From Candidatus Nitrosotalea bavarica (GTDB taxonomy: Archaea; Thermoproteota; Nitrososphaeria; Nitrososphaerales; Nitrosopumilaceae), in the NCBI RefSeq assembly GCF_900167955.1, contig NZ_FUYK01000007.1, forward strand, positions 1 to 64,000: a DNA stretch of 64,000 nt. The letters run 5' to 3'. Shown piece after piece: positions 44,364-52,467 of the stretch. A model generated the notes under the pieces. That model was not told the DNA's origin, ran no database searches, and saw only the letters and a list, made by a program, of their open reading frames with translations. The first letter of the stretch is position 1; each line of letters begins with the position of its first letter. The position numbers and the translations under genes were made by a program.

Positions 44364-47300
44364 ATGAATTATTCGATAACATTATCTTGTACATCTTCTC
44401 ATATTAGAAAGTTGTATAAAATTCTGATAATCTTTCTAGTTCTTTCAATGATAATACCTCCCATGACTCTACCTGATGCAAAAGCCTATTCTGATCATCC
44501 TAATCTTTTTGTTTCTGCAGAAAATAGTCTTTTTAATAATTATTTTTCTGGACCAATGGTAGTTGAAGTTATGGTGACAGAATCTAATAGCCAATTAGAT
44601 CAAGTATTGGGTGAACCAAATGTTTCTGTAGGTGGAAGTCGTCTTCGAATGGTTCAAAGCACTGATGGTAATTGGTATGGCTTTTTTGCAAATACTGAAT
44701 CTGCACAACAAGCTGATCAGGCAGCTCTTTCAGGATCTCCAGGTCAAAGTACTGACTTTGGCGTCTTTTGTTCTAGGTCTACAGCTCCATCAGTTCTAGG
44801 AGTAGATATTTCACAGACTGATGGAGTGGCAATTCCTGATTCTGCAGGCTTGTCTGGTACTACACAAGGAACTGCGGGCTTTAATTCATGCACTGGTAAT
44901 GCAACAACTCCATCAAGTCAAAATAATGTTATACGAAATCCTCCGTCTCTGAATACAAATCCCAAAGTTCCAGTGGGCCAGATAGGAATTAATCCAAATA
45001 TTTGGCCTTTTATCCAACTTTTTACTTTAAGTAATAATGTTCACATAGAATATGACGGTTCAACAGGTACTCAAAGTGTAGACCTTACTTATTCAGACAT
45101 TCCAAATATTTCATTAAAACTTGACAAAGATGCATATCCAACTGGTTCAGATGTTTTTGCAACAATAAATGATATTGAATTAAGCATAGATCCAACATCC
45201 ATAAACTCATGGACATTCAATGTTGGTTCACCTCAGGCCACATTTTACCAAGCCTTTTCTGAATCTGGTAGGAGTACAAGTGGATCTGGATTAGTAAATC
45301 TACTACCCTATCTGAGCAGTATGGGCTTCAAGGATAATGGACAGCTAACTATGGATACATCTGATGTTGTTAATCTGAAAACTAATTCTGTTCAAACAAG
45401 CTCATCACTTAATAGTATATACAACAAATTGGTAACTTTTGTAGAAACAGGACCACATACTGGAATTTTTTCAAGTTCCTTTGCGAGTGTTTCTACTATT
45501 GGAACATTACCGGATGCTCCTAGGGGTCACTCTGGATCAATTACTTATGATCTTCAAAGCGCTTCTATTGTTTCTGGTACTTCTACTGCGACCCTTACTC
45601 TTGGTACTGGTCAGAGTCAATTTAATCCAGGTCAAAGAGAAACAATTACTCTAGTAGATAATACTCAAAATCTTAACTCAAATCAGATTGATCAACTAGA
45701 TGTTTTTAGAAGTTCTGCAAAAATCCCAACCTTGGAGATTGGAAGTCCAATTACATTGAGTAGCTCATCAGGTGTTACATTCTATAATTCTTCAAGCACT
45801 CTTGTAGTTCCATCTGTTATATTTGATAGTAATTCCTTGAGATTGATTGTGGATACTAGAGGTCAATCTATGTCTAATTTCCAGAAAATCACAATTAATC
45901 TTGGCATTACAGCCCAGTCTCTCAAGAACTTGTTCATAGATACAAGTCAATCAAATTCGGGCGGGACTAACTGGATTAACTATGACCTAAGATCTTTTCA
46001 ACAACAACTTGGCATAACATCATTTTCTGGTGCTAGTATGACATTATACTTTGGCTCTGTTGGGAGTTCACCAGTTCAAATTTTAGCACCGGGAACAATT
46101 GTTTCTGGTAACGGCTTAGTTCAGATAAGTGATGCTACAGTGGCATCTATTGAATCAATGTCATCAGGCCTGCCAGTATATTTGGAAATTAATTTCAATA
46201 CTTCAGGCGGCTTTTCAAATCCAAGTGATACTCAACCCATAGTTTTTGATCTTTTTTCCTTTGGAACCAAAAATGGTCAACAAGAAAATAATGGTATCTA
46301 CAGAGCAGAACTACAAGAAACATCTGCTAATTCTGGTGTATTTTCTGGAACAATGGAATATGCGGTAGCAAATCAATTAAATCAATTTGATCCTAATCTG
46401 ATTAAGGGACTTAGTACTTTTGGAAGTAATATTAAATTTCTTGTAAATAATGACCTTACTGATGCTAATGCAATACACTTTTCAATTATTAGTACTCAAG
46501 GAGGAGGAACGTCTGCACCTACAACATCTCAGAATAGTCTTCCTACGCATACTGGTATAGTAACACTGGACTCGCCAACTTATAGAATCGGTTCAGTTGT
46601 TACAGTTACTGTCATTGATCCTGATCTAGTTACTGATGCTAATACTATTGTAACTTATCCAGCTGTAAATGATCCTAACTCAGCAGCAGATGATACTGTT
46701 GGAGATAGTAGTGGAAACATACTCCTAGAAGTTTGGATCAAGGGATATAGATTTCAACATTGTACCATAAATGGAGTCACATATGGAGGACTTGGTGCTA
46801 CCGGTTTTTCACTGATTGAAACAGGACCAGGTACTGGAATATTCAAGGGTAGTTTTGGAATGCCCGCACAGATATGCAGTGAGGACGGAACTACTTTAAT
46901 TTCCTCTGTTGGAGGTACTGTTCAGGCAAGGTATCACGATTTTCAAGATGAATTTGGTAGATCAGTCATAATCGAATCTACCGTTGGTGCCGCACCTGCC
47001 ACACCACAACCCGTACCACAACCTACAACAACCTCGATGCAATACAATACAATTTCAAAGTCAACTCAAATTAGTGATAAATCAGGAAGACCATTACTTC
47101 AAAATCCACATGTTGGGCAAACAATTAATTTCCAAAGTATGATTTCAAACAAATTATACTCAAACTATCAGAAAATTTCTTACATTGTTCAGATAAAAGA
47201 TAGTGACAATAAAGTAGTTTTCCTAAAATGGTCTGAAGATAATCTTGTAAATCTATCAACTACCAATGAAGCAATTCAATGGATGCCAACATCCCCAGGA

Positions 47301-47393
47301 GTTTATACTGCTGAAGTATATGTCTGGGATGGAATGGATACTCTAGTACCACTCATAGATGATAATCAATACAAAATTCAAGTTCTTCCATAA
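44364..47393 (+). CDS. Large secreted surface protein with S-layer-like repeat motifs
   Basis: A 1009-residue exported protein with a signal peptide near residues 15-42 (IIFLVLSMIIPPMTLPDAKA). The rest is Ser/Thr/Asn/Gly-rich beta structure with no membrane anchor. The phrase ET(G/S)xxxG(I/V)FxGxF occurs three times, at about residues 361, 652 and 819 (for example ETGPGTGIFKGSF), marking repeated domains. The last ~80 residues (QWMPTSPGVYTAEVYVWDG) are an Ig-like cap. Composition and repeats resemble thaumarchaeal S-layer-type proteins. Whether it is a structural S-layer protein or an accessory one is not decided. Confidence 0.75.
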   Translation: MNYSITLSCTSSHIRKLYKILIIFLVLSMIIPPMTLPDAKAYSDHPNLFVSAENSLFNNYFSGPMVVEVMVTESNSQLDQVLGEPNVSVGGSRLRMVQSTDGNWYGFFANTESAQQADQAALSGSPGQSTDFGVFCSRSTAPSVLGVDISQTDGVAIPDSAGLSGTTQGTAGFNSCTGNATTPSSQNNVIRNPPSLNTNPKVPVGQIGINPNIWPFIQLFTLSNNVHIEYDGSTGTQSVDLTYSDIPNISLKLDKDAYPTGSDVFATINDIELSIDPTSINSWTFNVGSPQATFYQAFSESGRSTSGSGLVNLLPYLSSMGFKDNGQLTMDTSDVVNLKTNSVQTSSSLNSIYNKLVTFVETGPHTGIFSSSFASVSTIGTLPDAPRGHSGSITYDLQSASIVSGTSTATLTLGTGQSQFNPGQRETITLVDNTQNLNSNQIDQLDVFRSSAKIPTLEIGSPITLSSSSGVTFYNSSSTLVVPSVIFDSNSLRLIVDTRGQSMSNFQKITINLGITAQSLKNLFIDTSQSNSGGTNWINYDLRSFQQQLGITSFSGASMTLYFGSVGSSPVQILAPGTIVSGNGLVQISDATVASIESMSSGLPVYLEINFNTSGGFSNPSDTQPIVFDLFSFGTKNGQQENNGIYRAELQETSANSGVFSGTMEYAVANQLNQFDPNLIKGLSTFGSNIKFLVNNDLTDANAIHFSIISTQGGGTSAPTTSQNSLPTHTGIVTLDSPTYRIGSVVTVTVIDPDLVTDANTIVTYPAVNDPNSAADDTVGDSSGNILLEVWIKGYRFQHCTINGVTYGGLGATGFSLIETGPGTGIFKGSFGMPAQICSEDGTTLISSVGGTVQARYHDFQDEFGRSVIIESTVGAAPATPQPVPQPTTTSMQYNTISKSTQISDKSGRPLLQNPHVGQTINFQSMISNKLYSNYQKISYIVQIKDSDNKVVFLKWSEDNLVNLSTTNEAIQWMPTSPGVYTAEVYVWDGMDTLVPLIDDNQYKIQVLP

Positions 47394-47408: not shown

Positions 47409-48566
47409 TTAAAAATTGTATTTGCTTTTGTATGGTGACACTGCGCGTAATTCCTTAACCACTTTTTTTAATACGTCTACAGTTTCATCAATTTCTTGTT
47501 CCGTATTTGTTATTCCTACTGTAAGACGTAAAGACCCTGTAACTTGCTCATGCGAAAACCCCATGGCTTTTAACACATGCGATGCTTTTTGGATCTTTAC
47601 AGAACAAGCAGAACCCGTAGATGCAGATATTTTATTTTCGTCTAATTTTATTATTAGATCCTCTCCACTTACACCCAGAAAAGTAAAATGAGTATTATTA
47701 GGAATTCTCATATCTGGATGTCCATTAAGTGTAGTGGATGGTATTTCAGATAAAACGCGTGAGATCAACCTTGTAGATAATTTTTTGAAATGAGCCATCT
47801 TCTCATTCACGTCATCCTTTATTAATTTACATGCCATTCCAAATCCTACAATGCTTGCTACGTTTTCTGTGCCAGATCGTAATCCTCTTTCTTGACCTCC
47901 TCCTAACATTAGAGGTGATATTTTTACACCATTTTTGATATACAATGCACCTACACCTTTTGGACCATTTATTTTGTGAGATGATATTGAAAGCAAATCA
48001 ATTCCAAATTCCTTGACGTCTATGGGGGTTTTTCCTACTGCTTGGACTGCATCTGTATGAAAGATAATGTTCTTCTCTCTTGCAATTTTAGCTATTTCCT
48101 TTATGGGCTGTATTGTGCCAACTTCATTATTAGCATACATTATTGTAATCAGACAAGTGTCATCCGAAATCTCTTTTTTGAGATCTTCTGGATTTACAAA
48201 GCCATATTGATCTACGGGAAGAAAAGATATTCGATATCCTTCTTTTTCAAGATGTTTACATGGTTCAAGTATTGCGTCATGTTCAATAGATGATGTTATG
48301 ATGTGTTTGCCTTTACTTTGTGATGATATTCCATAGATTGCAGTATTGTTTGATTCTGTTCCTCCTGAAGTTATGAGTATTTCATTGATATCCGCATTGA
48401 CTAGTGCGGCAATTCTTTTCCTTGCATTTTGAATTGCGGTATTTGCAAGCCTACCATGTCTATGTATGGAAGAAGGATTTCCGTATTGTTCTCTGAAATA
48501 AGGTAACATCTCTTCGATGACCTTTTCATGAACTGGTGTAGATGCGGCATTATCTAAGTAAATCAA
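47409..48566 (-). CDS. Cysteine desulfurase (NifS/IscS class)
   Basis: A 385-residue PLP enzyme that takes sulfur from cysteine and holds it as a persulfide. MIYLDNAASTPVHEKV is the family start; GNPSSIHRHG, TSGGTESNN, FHTDAVQAVGK and the PLP lysine in SISSHKINGPKG are present. The catalytic Cys is in ASTGSACSV. It overlaps the larE stop by 4 bp and is translated right after LarE. This points to sulfur supply for LarE or for Fe-S assembly; no scaffold gene is adjacent. Confidence 0.94.
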   Translation of the reverse strand: MIYLDNAASTPVHEKVIEEMLPYFREQYGNPSSIHRHGRLANTAIQNARKRIAALVNADINEILITSGGTESNNTAIYGISSQSKGKHIITSSIEHDAILEPCKHLEKEGYRISFLPVDQYGFVNPEDLKKEISDDTCLITIMYANNEVGTIQPIKEIAKIAREKNIIFHTDAVQAVGKTPIDVKEFGIDLLSISSHKINGPKGVGALYIKNGVKISPLMLGGGQERGLRSGTENVASIVGFGMACKLIKDDVNEKMAHFKKLSTRLISRVLSEIPSTTLNGHPDMRIPNNTHFTFLGVSGEDLIIKLDENKISASTGSACSVKIQKASHVLKAMGFSHEQVTGSLRLTVGITNTEQEIDETVDVLKKVVKELRAVSPYKSKYNF

Positions 48567-49363
48567 TCTGTTATCACATTGAGTTTGCCTGATCGATATC
48601 CACTAGGATCAACTAAGACTGTATTAAATCCAAACTGATTCATGTATTCCTTTAACACTGACATCTTTTTCTCGTCACTGAGAAAAACAATTTCATTTTT
48701 ATCTACTTCTATATTGGCGCTATTTCCAAAGTCGCGAACTCTTACCTGTCTTACACCAAAAAGTTGTTTTATCATAGTCTCACTCTTCTCAATTCTTGCA
48801 AGCTTTTCAGCGGTAACGGTATTTCCCCATGGAATGCGTGATGCTAAACAGGAATTGGATGGTTTGTCATGGATTGAAAGACCCATCTCTCTTGCTACTC
48901 TTCTAACATCTAATTTTTTGAATCTACTTTCCACTAGTGGACTTTGAACACCAATTTCTTTTAGGGCTACTATTCCAGGTCTGTACTCTGTAAGATCATC
49001 TAGGTTAGTTCCATCAACGATGAGGCCAATTTTTTCTATTTTTGATAGTCTAAGAAGGTGCTCTGATAATTCTGTTCTACAATGAAAACATCTGTTTTGA
49101 TCATTCTTTACAAAGTCTGGATTATCTAGTTCATTGTATTCAATAATTATGTGCCTAATTCCTATCTCTTGACAAACTATCTTTGCAGATTCCAACTCTT
49201 CCTGAGAGAGTGTCTTGTAATCTGCTGTTACTGCAATAGCCTGTTTACCTAGAGCTTTTTGAGCAGCATATGCCACAAGAGCACTATCAACACCACCAGA
49301 AAGAGCTACCAGAACTTTTTCTTTTCCATAAAACCAATTTACTAATTCTTCGAACTGTTTCAT
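48563..49363 (-). CDS. larE: LarE, sulfur transferase for nickel-pincer nucleotide cofactor
   Basis: A PP-loop ATP pyrophosphatase (266 residues) that adenylates the pyridinium dicarboxylate mononucleotide and inserts sulfur. The PP-loop is SGGVDS (22-27). RCFHC (C92, C95) and the LarE motif SNSCLASRIPWG with C172 are present. C172 matches the sacrificial cysteine of Lactobacillus LarE; no further cysteine follows, so this is the single-Cys type rather than the [4Fe-4S] type. Overlaps larC and the cysteine desulfurase gene by 4 bp each. Confidence 0.93.
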   Translation of the reverse strand: MKQFEELVNWFYGKEKVLVALSGGVDSALVAYAAQKALGKQAIAVTADYKTLSQEELESAKIVCQEIGIRHIIIEYNELDNPDFVKNDQNRCFHCRTELSEHLLRLSKIEKIGLIVDGTNLDDLTEYRPGIVALKEIGVQSPLVESRFKKLDVRRVAREMGLSIHDKPSNSCLASRIPWGNTVTAEKLARIEKSETMIKQLFGVRQVRVRDFGNSANIEVDKNEIVFLSDEKKMSVLKEYMNQFGFNTVLVDPSGYRSGKLNVITD

Positions 49364-50592
49364 TTTATGTTTAGTCTCCGTTTGACTTCATCTGATATCA
49401 AATCAGCTGTCACTTTAAATGATAAATCTAATGACTCTGCAATTAATTTGACATCATCTGCTTCTACTTTGAAATGCTTTACAGTCTCCTCATGTTTTAC
49501 AATCTTACATCTAACAGTGAAATTTTTTCCTTGTAATAGAATGGGTACTGTGACAATTATTCTTGGAACAATATATCGATTAGAAGATCTTACTCGTACG
49601 CCTAAAGTGCCAGTCTCTGAAACAAGTGTATTCATCAGGCTATTTGTAACAGATGGCTCACATATGACGGAAACAAGATTGGTCGGTCTTCCTTTCTTTG
49701 TTATAGCTCCTGTTACAGTAACATCTTTTGCACCATTTGCAATTAACTTATCAATCATATGTCCAATTGTCTCACCAGAGACATCATCTAGGTTTGTTTC
49801 AAGAATTTGTACTGTATCTAACTGAAATTCGCTTGTTGATTCTCCTCTGACAATTTTCAAAACATTGGAAAATCCCTCAAAGTCTTTACTTCCAGCACCA
49901 TATCCTATTGATTTTATTTTCATTGTTGGATAAAATTCTGAACATCTATTTGCCAGATTTACAAGGAGACTTGCACCAGTTGGTGTGGTTAGTTCCTCTT
50001 TAACCTGTCCTCCGCAAATTATTGTATCTGAATTACGAAATATTTCAAGTATGGCACTTGCAGGATTGGATGTAGTTCCATGAGAGAAAGTTAGAGTGCC
50101 TCCACCAACTGCCACTGGTGTTGAAATAATCTGGTCTGAAAATAATTTTAGATCATCTAATGCAATAGCTGAACCAATAATATCTATGGCAGTATCAATA
50201 CTTGATGCTTCATGAAAATGTACTGATTCTAATGGTTCTCCATGTATCTTCGACTCTGCATGAAGCAATGATCTGATGCTTTCCTTTGTAAAAACTTTGG
50301 CCTTCTCAGATAATCCTATCTTGTCTGATGTTGACAATATACACTCTTGAATCTCCATTCCTTTTCGTTCGTGGTGATTCTCACTTGTCTCTAAAACAAG
50401 ACGTGTTGCCTCTATTCCATGTTTTACAACTTTGTCAAAATCTAATTTTGTAATTTTAGAACCTCTGAGATAATCTTCAACTGAATGTACACCATCTATG
50501 ACTTTGGACTTGTTTGCTCCTATGCTAACTAATGAAGAAAGTAACATATCTCCAGAGATTCCAGCTATCTGTGCATCGATTACAAGTACCAT
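49360..50592 (-). CDS. larC: LarC, nickel insertase/cyclometallase for nickel-pincer nucleotide
   Basis: A CTP-dependent enzyme that inserts nickel into the pincer nucleotide. 410 residues, one continuous frame, unlike the frameshift-split larC1/C2 of Lactobacillus plantarum. DAQIAGISGDMLLSSL, HFHEASSIDTAIDIIGSA, TTPTGASLL and the later LETNLDDVSGETIGHM are LarC hallmarks. First gene of larC-larE-cysteine desulfurase on the minus strand, divergent from malate dehydrogenase across 126 bp. Confidence 0.93.
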   Translation of the reverse strand: MVLVIDAQIAGISGDMLLSSLVSIGANKSKVIDGVHSVEDYLRGSKITKLDFDKVVKHGIEATRLVLETSENHHERKGMEIQECILSTSDKIGLSEKAKVFTKESIRSLLHAESKIHGEPLESVHFHEASSIDTAIDIIGSAIALDDLKLFSDQIISTPVAVGGGTLTFSHGTTSNPASAILEIFRNSDTIICGGQVKEELTTPTGASLLVNLANRCSEFYPTMKIKSIGYGAGSKDFEGFSNVLKIVRGESTSEFQLDTVQILETNLDDVSGETIGHMIDKLIANGAKDVTVTGAITKKGRPTNLVSVICEPSVTNSLMNTLVSETGTLGVRVRSSNRYIVPRIIVTVPILLQGKNFTVRCKIVKHEETVKHFKVEADDVKLIAESLDLSFKVTADLISDEVKRRLNIK

Positions 50593-50718: not shown

Positions 50719-51633
50719 ATGATTACAATTATTGGCTCTGGAAAAGTAGGTGGAGCAGCTGCATTATTTACAGCTCTTAGAAAAGTTACAGATGAAATAC
50801 TGCTATTAGATGTAGTTCAAGGTCTTCCACAAGGAGAGGCTATGGACATAAATCACATGTTGGCAGAAAAAGGAATTGATGTAAACGTTAGAGGTTCAAA
50901 TGATTATTCTGAAATGAAAGGCTCTGATATTGTAGTTGTTGTTGCTGGTTCTGGCAGAAAACCTGGAATGACAAGAATGGATCTTTTAAAAATAAATGCG
51001 TCAATAGTAAAAGGTGTTGTAGAAAATATTCAAAAATATGCTAAGGATGCAATGATACTTCCAGTAACTAATCCGTTAGATCCAATGGCGTATCTTGCTT
51101 ACAAAGTCTCGGGATTTCAAAGAAACAGAGTATTTGGAATGGGTGGCATGCTTGATTTGTCACGATTTACACAATTTATACACGAAGCTACAGGTTACTC
51201 GAGAAATTCAATACGTGCACTTGTAGTAGGTGAACATGGCGAGAACATGCTCCCACTTCCAAGATTCTCTACTGTATCTGGAATGCCACTTTCTTCAATT
51301 TTACCAAAGGAGAAAATTGAAGAAATTGTACAGGGAACAAGACAAGTTGCAGCAAAGGTAATAGAACTAAAGGGTGCAACAGTTCATGCCCCGGGAAATG
51401 CAATATCTACAATCATAGAGGCGGTATTAAACAACACAAGACAAGTTATTCCTGTAGCAACATATCTTGATGGAGAATATGGTTACTCTGATGTCACTAT
51501 TGGTGTTCCAGCAGTTATAGGTAGAAACGGTGTTGAGAAAATAATAGAATTGGACCTGGATTCAAGTGAAAAAGAGTGGTTCAAAAAAGGAGTAGAAAGC
51601 GTCAAGAATGCCATCTCAAATCTTGGACTCTGA
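50719..51633 (+). CDS. mdh: Malate dehydrogenase (LDH/MDH family)
   Basis: NAD(P)-dependent malate/oxaloacetate interconversion. 304 residues with [15 protein letters not shown] as the dinucleotide loop and LLLDVVQG, whose Asp suits NAD. The catalytic His is in [12 protein letters not shown]. The specificity loop [15 protein letters not shown] has Arg at the position that separates MDH from LDH (Gln). It lies between larC and larB; larB starts 33 bp downstream on the same strand. This suggests a link between 2-hydroxy-acid metabolism and the nickel cofactor, or simple co-localisation. Confidence 0.95.
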
Positions 51634-51666: not shown

Positions 51667-52467
51667 ATGTTGGATCTTACAGAAATACTAGAATCACTTG
51701 ATCTTGGAAAGATAAGCGTCTCAAAGGCTAAGAAGCTACTTTCACTCTACTCTGTAGAAAAAATTGAAGATTTTGCTAAGATGGATATGAGTAGAAAGTT
51801 ACGACGTGGAATACCAGAGGTTATTTTCGCTGAAAAAAAAGAATTTTTGGACCTTAAGAAGATAATTCTTGCAACAACATCTAAAGCAGATTCTATCCTT
51901 GTCTCAAGAATCAACAAAGGTCACTATAAAAAAATATTGACTTTTTCTAAAAGGAACAAATTGAAAATACAGACAGGTAAAAATACCACAACTATACTTT
52001 TCTTTAAAAAATTGTCTTCCACAGGAGGAAAAGTAGGGATACTAACAGCGGGAACTTCTGATGTTGGCGTGGCAGAAGAAGCAAGACTAATGTGTGAATC
52101 TATGGGATGTCAATGTATCTGCAGTTATGATGTTGGCATAGCTGGAATTCATAGGCTTTTTCCTATAGTTAAAAAAATGATACGCGATGATGTAGATGCA
52201 ATTATAGTAGTTGCTGGAATGGAAGGGGCACTTGCATCAATAATCTCATCACTAGTGGATATACCTGTAATTGGAGTGCCATCCTCAGTTGGATATGGTT
52301 ATGGAGAAAAAGGAGTTGCAGCATTGGCATCTATGTTACAGAGTTGTACTTTGGGACTTTCTGTTGTTAATATTGACAATGGCATAGGTGCAGGAGCATT
52401 TGCAGCTAATGTAGCAAATAGAAGTGTAAGAAAAAAATCAAGTCTTAATAATTCCAAGACTTCCTAA
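51667..52467 (+). CDS. larB: LarB, pyridinium dicarboxylate mononucleotide synthase
   Basis: Carboxylates and hydrolyses nicotinic acid adenine dinucleotide, the first step of nickel-pincer nucleotide synthesis. The C-terminal half is PurE-like: GKVGILTAGTSDVGVAEEARLMCESMG, then VVAGMEGALASIISSLVDIPVIGVPSSVGYG and NIDNGIGAGAFAANVA, all typical of LarB. The N-terminal ~120 residues carry the usual LarB start region. 266 residues. Follows mdh on the plus strand; the 3' end overlaps the convergent VIT-family gene by 30 bp. Confidence 0.93.
   Translation: MLDLTEILESLDLGKISVSKAKKLLSLYSVEKIEDFAKMDMSRKLRRGIPEVIFAEKKEFLDLKKIILATTSKADSILVSRINKGHYKKILTFSKRNKLKIQTGKNTTTILFFKKLSSTGGKVGILTAGTSDVGVAEEARLMCESMGCQCICSYDVGIAGIHRLFPIVKKMIRDDVDAIIVVAGMEGALASIISSLVDIPVIGVPSSVGYGYGEKGVAALASMLQSCTLGLSVVNIDNGIGAGAFAANVANRSVRKKSSLNNSKTS

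Follow-up and report, generated by a model that had tools for sequence, protein, structure and literature searches.

A conserved larC-larE-desulfurase operon in ammonia-oxidising archaea points to a native sulfur donor for a three-cysteine LarE

Results and discussion

In a 64,000-nucleotide stretch of the genome of Candidatus Nitrosotalea bavarica (hereafter the window), we identified a single operon of the nickel-pincer nucleotide (NPN) cofactor pathway consisting of larC, larE and a gene for a cysteine desulfurase, with larB located on the opposite strand. The LarE encoded by this operon carries the three-cysteine motif of proteins that hold an iron-sulfur cluster, and we infer that the desulfurase is its sulfur donor in these archaea. 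The co-expressed desulfurase probably feeds an expendable sulfide to the cluster of a [4Fe-4S] LarE, which turns over. Features of the operon and its relatives are described below.

Organization of the operon

The genes and sequence elements of this region are as follows (window coordinates).

47409..48566, minus strand: cysteine desulfurase, IscS/NifS-type (class I), 385 aa, TTG start
47604..47606, minus strand: catalytic Cys321 of the desulfurase, in the loop SASTGSACSV
48563..48566, minus strand: 4-bp overlap of larE and the desulfurase gene, TTGA (TTG start and TGA stop)
48563..49363, minus strand: larE, PP-loop sulfur insertase of the CXXC-C type, predicted [4Fe-4S], 266 aa
48848..48850, minus strand: LarE Cys172, third predicted cluster ligand, matching T. 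maritima C172 (PMC9283937)
49079..49090, minus strand: LarE Cys92-x-x-Cys95, predicted cluster ligands, matching T. maritima C92/C95 (PMC9283937)
49283..49300, minus strand: LarE SGGVDS ATP-binding PP-loop, residues 22-27, invariant in the alignment
49360..49363, minus strand: 4-bp overlap of larC and larE, ATGA
49360..50592, minus strand: larC, nickel insertion protein of NPN cofactor biosynthesis (LarC1 and LarC2 domains), first gene of the operon
50719..51633, plus strand: mdh, malate dehydrogenase, divergent neighbour (NF004863, 384 bits)
51667..52467, plus strand: larB, pyridinium carboxylase of NPN biosynthesis (NF033503, 240.6 bits, cut-off 175)

The first gene, larC, matches PF01969 with 355.9 bits and lies above the cut-offs of both TIGR00299 (159.4 bits) and NF052512 (111.1 bits). 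As a first-pass annotation of this DNA had observed, larE ends inside the start of the NifS/IscS-type gene. The overlap implies that the start codon of the desulfurase is TTG, and a chance open reading frame call can be excluded because the TTGA junction is kept in 30 of the 30 larE-centred loci checked. Since larC also overlaps larE by four base pairs, the unit comprises all three genes. The divergent mdh-larB unit beside it is kept in several families. At the other end, a gene for a 1009-aa protein without a Pfam match (44364-47393, on the opposite strand to the desulfurase) has its end separated by 15 bp from that of the desulfurase gene, a position that is kept in two genomes (G124 and G185).

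LarE carries a three-cysteine motif

LarE scores 268.6 bits with TIGR00268 (cut-off 150) and contains four cysteines, C64, C92, C95 and C172. The last three are invariant in 70 of 70 LarE sequences taken from larE loci, and the same holds in our alignment (A1). The CXXC-C pattern is likewise found in nearly all of about 80 homologues, from a diverse range of bacteria and archaea, in which these columns align. In contrast, a single-cysteine control from Sporosarcina (L151) has W and S at positions 92 and 95 and carries its cysteine one residue earlier (W/S/C171/S), where the LarE of the window has Ser at position 171. The distinction between single-cysteine and three-cysteine LarE proteins, including the one-residue shift, has been described previously (PMC9283937). 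With a CXXC and a distant third cysteine, the LarE of the window groups by its motif with the non-sacrificial [4Fe-4S] proteins; the hallmarks of the sacrificial type, a lone active-site cysteine where L. plantarum has Cys176 and the lack of a CXXC, are not found in it. The first-pass annotation had taken this LarE for a single-cysteine protein that gives up its own sulfur, probably that of C172, an assignment that the invariant CXXC-C motif contradicts.

An AlphaFold2 model of LarE built from the same alignment (pLDDT 90.5) has as its best matches in the PDB the mmLarE-[4Fe-4S] chains of 8cnz (E 7.7e-22), ahead of LarE from Lactobacillus plantarum. The mmLarE structures (8cnz, 8cp3 and 8cp4), which are presumably of Methanococcus maripaludis LarE, match with TM 0.82-0.85 and with the CXXC-C cysteines aligned, although sequence identity is about 30%. 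The L. plantarum protein (5udq and others) has the same fold, family and substrate-binding Arg residues. However, it has a single Cys176, lacks the CXXC, and is consumed after one turnover. Since all PDB matches share one fold, it is the motif and not the fold that decides the LarE type. On the strength of this motif, we expect C92, C95 and C172 of LarE to coordinate a [4Fe-4S] cluster, and we predict an inherently catalytic protein, with nothing converted from sacrificial to catalytic. The NCBIfam name of TIGR00268, 'sacrificial sulfur transferase LarE', covers three-cysteine members that are probably not sacrificial; this is a likely misannotation, every LarE still being 'sacrificial' in NCBIfam.

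The desulfurase and a separate SUF operon

The desulfurase (Aminotran_5, 303 bits) passes the IscS subfamily model NF002806 (327.3 bits, cut-off 304) and just misses the NifS equivalog TIGR03402 (516.0 bits, cut-off 530.75), and is therefore called an IscS/NifS-type class-I desulfurase. It has in common with these enzymes an active site of His96, the PLP lysine Lys198 and catalytic Cys321, kept in nearly all orthologues. Unlike them, it is encoded with larE rather than with an IscU/NifU scaffold, and the larC-larE-desulfurase operon contains no scaffold gene. In a tree of 67 sequences, a branch separates the lar-linked desulfurases from the other IscS/NifS proteins of the class, with weak support for a single clade (76/32; 74% of bootstrap trees).

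The same genome has a separate sufB-sufD-Rieske-sufS-sufU operon (C15, ~152.3-157.2 kb). SufS and the lar-linked enzyme are its only clear desulfurases, in addition to a weaker SufS-like protein. General Fe-S assembly is covered by this SUF operon, and because a SufS is encoded within it, the lar-linked desulfurase is not simply an Fe-S-scaffold enzyme. The first-pass annotation had allowed that the desulfurase might serve such a scaffold, and the complete SUF operon weakens this reading.

Conservation of the larE-desulfurase pair

The pairing is conserved, but not obligate. We searched 200 genomes of the class (Nitrososphaeria), first for LarE and then for the desulfurase. Among the matches listed, an orthologous desulfurase lies directly downstream of larE on the same strand for 128 of 149 larE genes; again among the matches listed, the overlap is exactly four base pairs in 85 of the 128 adjacent pairs and a single base pair in 8 genomes. 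In two genomes outside the 128 (G125 and G118) the pair is adjacent but cut by contig ends, and in another (G197) the region is split over two contigs. The trio larC-larE-desulfurase is held in four families (f1, f2, f3 and f5), with intergenic gaps of -4 to +224 bp. An apparent loss of the junction in G158, G176 and G180 reflects low-complexity inserts in both proteins, and the 4-bp overlap is intact. Inserts in LarE and the desulfurase are seen at loci L047, L048 and L049, from three related high-GC genomes.

LarE with an intact motif occurs without the desulfurase in G046, G130, G153 and G068, in genus g28 and in families f7-f9. In family f6 (G150 and G191; loci L059 and L202), larC-larE is followed by SufS-SufU and not by the IscS-type gene. 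The desulfurase ortholog is almost never found without LarE, with one clear case in the 200 genomes (G185, described below). The possibility that the pairing is limited to this genome, which the first-pass annotation had raised along with a check of its conservation across archaea, is thus set aside by its presence throughout much of the class as well as in other archaea.

Elsewhere, other desulfurases adjoin larE. In a euryarchaeal MAG (L167), larE overlaps a SufS-type gene by four base pairs (ATGA), and in G377 (L105) sufS is located 4 bp upstream of larE. The gene order is nifS-iscU-moeB-larE in Methanohalophilus (L155:2657-5783) and moeB-larE-nifS-iscU in G394 (L074:2626-6425), while in a Bacillota MAG (L127) larE is followed by one small gene and then by a desulfurase-family gene. 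That unrelated desulfurase families adjoin larE argues that the two are linked in function, beyond mere inheritance of gene order. With the pairing conserved and unrelated desulfurases beside larE in other archaea, the functional link that the first-pass annotation had proposed appears likely. The clusters of Methanohalophilus and G394 (moeB/thiF-like, larE, nifS, iscU) possibly contain a LarE paralogue that acts in another sulfur relay.

Comparison with T. maritima LarE and a proposed mechanism

The LarE of Thermotoga maritima (C92, C95, C172) binds a [4Fe-4S] cluster and retains all of its cysteines; supplied with E. coli IscS and L-cysteine, it performs multiple turnovers, which Na2S does not sustain (PMC9283937). 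It resembles the LarE of the window in its CXXC-C numbering and its PP-loop, and [4Fe-4S]-dependent, desulfurase-fed catalysis is expected to be common to the two. The systems differ in the donor, which is E. coli IscS for T. maritima and has a candidate gene within the operon here, and in LarA, a homologue of which is present in T. maritima and was not detected in the genome of the window. The two desulfurase genes of T. maritima are far from its larE (PMC9283937), and native operonic coupling is therefore new here. The first-pass annotation knew of no established example of a desulfurase making LarE catalytic; T. maritima LarE with E. coli IscS and L-cysteine provides one (PMC9283937). Desulfurase-fed [4Fe-4S] LarE is accordingly already known, from biochemistry in T. 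maritima. What is new is the native desulfurase within the operon, with its wide conservation, the finding that other desulfurases take its place elsewhere, and the lack of a recognised client enzyme. A literature search for LarE in ammonia-oxidising archaea found no paper.

In the mechanism that we propose, the desulfurase would use L-cysteine to form a persulfide on Cys321, and this sulfur would be passed to the open iron of the LarE cluster to give [4Fe-5S]. LarE would adenylylate P2CMN with ATP, and the non-core sulfide would attack, twice per cofactor. LarC would then put in nickel, while LarE would retain all of its cysteines and turn over. The operon and its conservation, the CXXC-C motif, the intact active-site residues of the desulfurase and the separate SUF operon are contributed by the sequences analysed here; the cluster and turnover with IscS were demonstrated in T. 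maritima (PMC9283937).

Alternatively, the desulfurase could be a general sulfur donor (for example, for tRNA thiolation or Fe-S clusters) that is encoded at the end of the lar operon and is one of several sources for LarE. A natural loss of larBCE bears on this explanation. In G185, which belongs to the same genus as the genome of the window, larC, larE and larB are absent and the desulfurase and mdh are intact in place. The loss occurred at two places (larC with larE, and larB; L223), the flanking VIT1 and radical-SAM genes are still in order, and the break in the sequence falls at the larE stop. Retention of the desulfurase implies that the enzyme has at least one further use, or that the loss is recent and the gene has not yet decayed. 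Together with the LarE-only genomes, of which there are several, it makes the desulfurase a preferred, not an exclusive, partner of LarE. A general role also fits the small set of clear desulfurases in the genome of the window. However, the ortholog almost always accompanies LarE and adjoins it through a stop/start overlap that is conserved, a SufS is already encoded in the SUF operon, and unrelated desulfurases take the position beside larE in other lineages; a general donor is therefore unlikely. Malate dehydrogenase, a conserved neighbour, was rejected as a member of the pathway, since it is kept in G185 after the loss of larB, larC and larE.

It is also improbable that the product of LarBCE and the desulfurase is a related thio-cofactor, or that their substrate is a different one, in a pathway other than hydroxyacid racemisation. 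Such a pathway would agree with the absence of LarA from 143 of the ~152 genomes with LarB and LarC, but LarB, LarC and LarE all score above their family cut-offs, and they are lost together (f4, G185, G098, G181 and G192), as expected for the known pathway. We give slightly less credence again to a desulfurase that builds or repairs LarE's own [4Fe-4S] cluster and is not the source of cofactor sulfur, given that direct transfer of persulfide from IscS to cluster-loaded LarE was seen in T. maritima (PMC9283937). Cluster scaffolds are fed by NifS-type enzymes, and an IscU scaffold is encoded beside LarE in Methanohalophilus and G394; however, the operon described here is without a scaffold gene.

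We know of no established way for a persulfide to reverse dehydroalanine formation. The version of the first-pass annotation, in which a sacrificial single-cysteine LarE is recharged by the coupled desulfurase and so becomes catalytic, was rejected on the motif comparison with the Sporosarcina control, for although C172 is near the position of L. plantarum Cys176, the CXXC-C is present and invariant, and the single-cysteine type has no CXXC and carries its cysteine one residue earlier (PMC9283937).

A desulfurase that supplies sulfide to a catalytic [4Fe-4S] LarE is thus the explanation that we prefer. It would provide a natural, conserved genetic partner for LarE-plus-desulfurase catalysis, which to date has been demonstrated only with a desulfurase borrowed from E. 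coli. The gene pair tells experimenters which desulfurase to take.

The client of the nickel cofactor

LarB and LarC are each found in 153 of the 200 genomes, and both in 152 by comparison of the two lists; among the matches listed, LarE is found in the same genomes. The LarA domain PF09861 (Lar_N) is above its cut-off in 15 of 200 genomes, including 9 of the ~152 with LarB and LarC. The genome of the window (97% complete) has no PF09861 match, and its Lar system (LarB, LarC, LarE, LarA) is therefore incomplete, with no LarA detected. DUF362, which shares a Pfam clan with LarA, is absent. Three control genomes, Synechococcus elongatus, M. jannaschii and Haloferax volcanii, similarly have LarB, LarC and LarE matches and no Lar_N match. 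Desguin and colleagues reportedly noted in 2014 that LarA has a narrower distribution than the maturation genes. For H. volcanii, an NPN enzyme yet to be identified has been suggested as a possibility (PMC8305020). A LarA homologue has been published for C. glutamicum, yet our control genome of this species has no Lar_N match, so strain differences or misses by Lar_N are possible.

We also looked for a hidden LarA with a dedicated profile built from 6 LarA sequences. It detected a single divergent protein of the LarA fold, 362 aa long (G000 C16:13177-14262; L227:1057-2145; E 3.6e-12), which is missed by Pfam Lar_N and is below the cut-off of PF21113 (17.9 bits). The protein occurs in 179 of 200 genomes, among them G185 and all seven of family f4, both of which are without larBCE. 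The His and Lys that are conserved in LarA, which we take to be catalytic and cofactor-binding residues, are not present in it. Because these residues are missing and its distribution does not track larBCE, this protein is unlikely to be the client.

We consider it nearly as likely as not that ammonia-oxidising archaea, with a dedicated desulfurase in the operon, make NPN for an enzyme that does not belong to the known superfamily of LarA racemases. The larger matter that the operon brings up is the identity of the client enzyme in these abundant archaea, where the whole pathway is kept and LarA is mostly missing.
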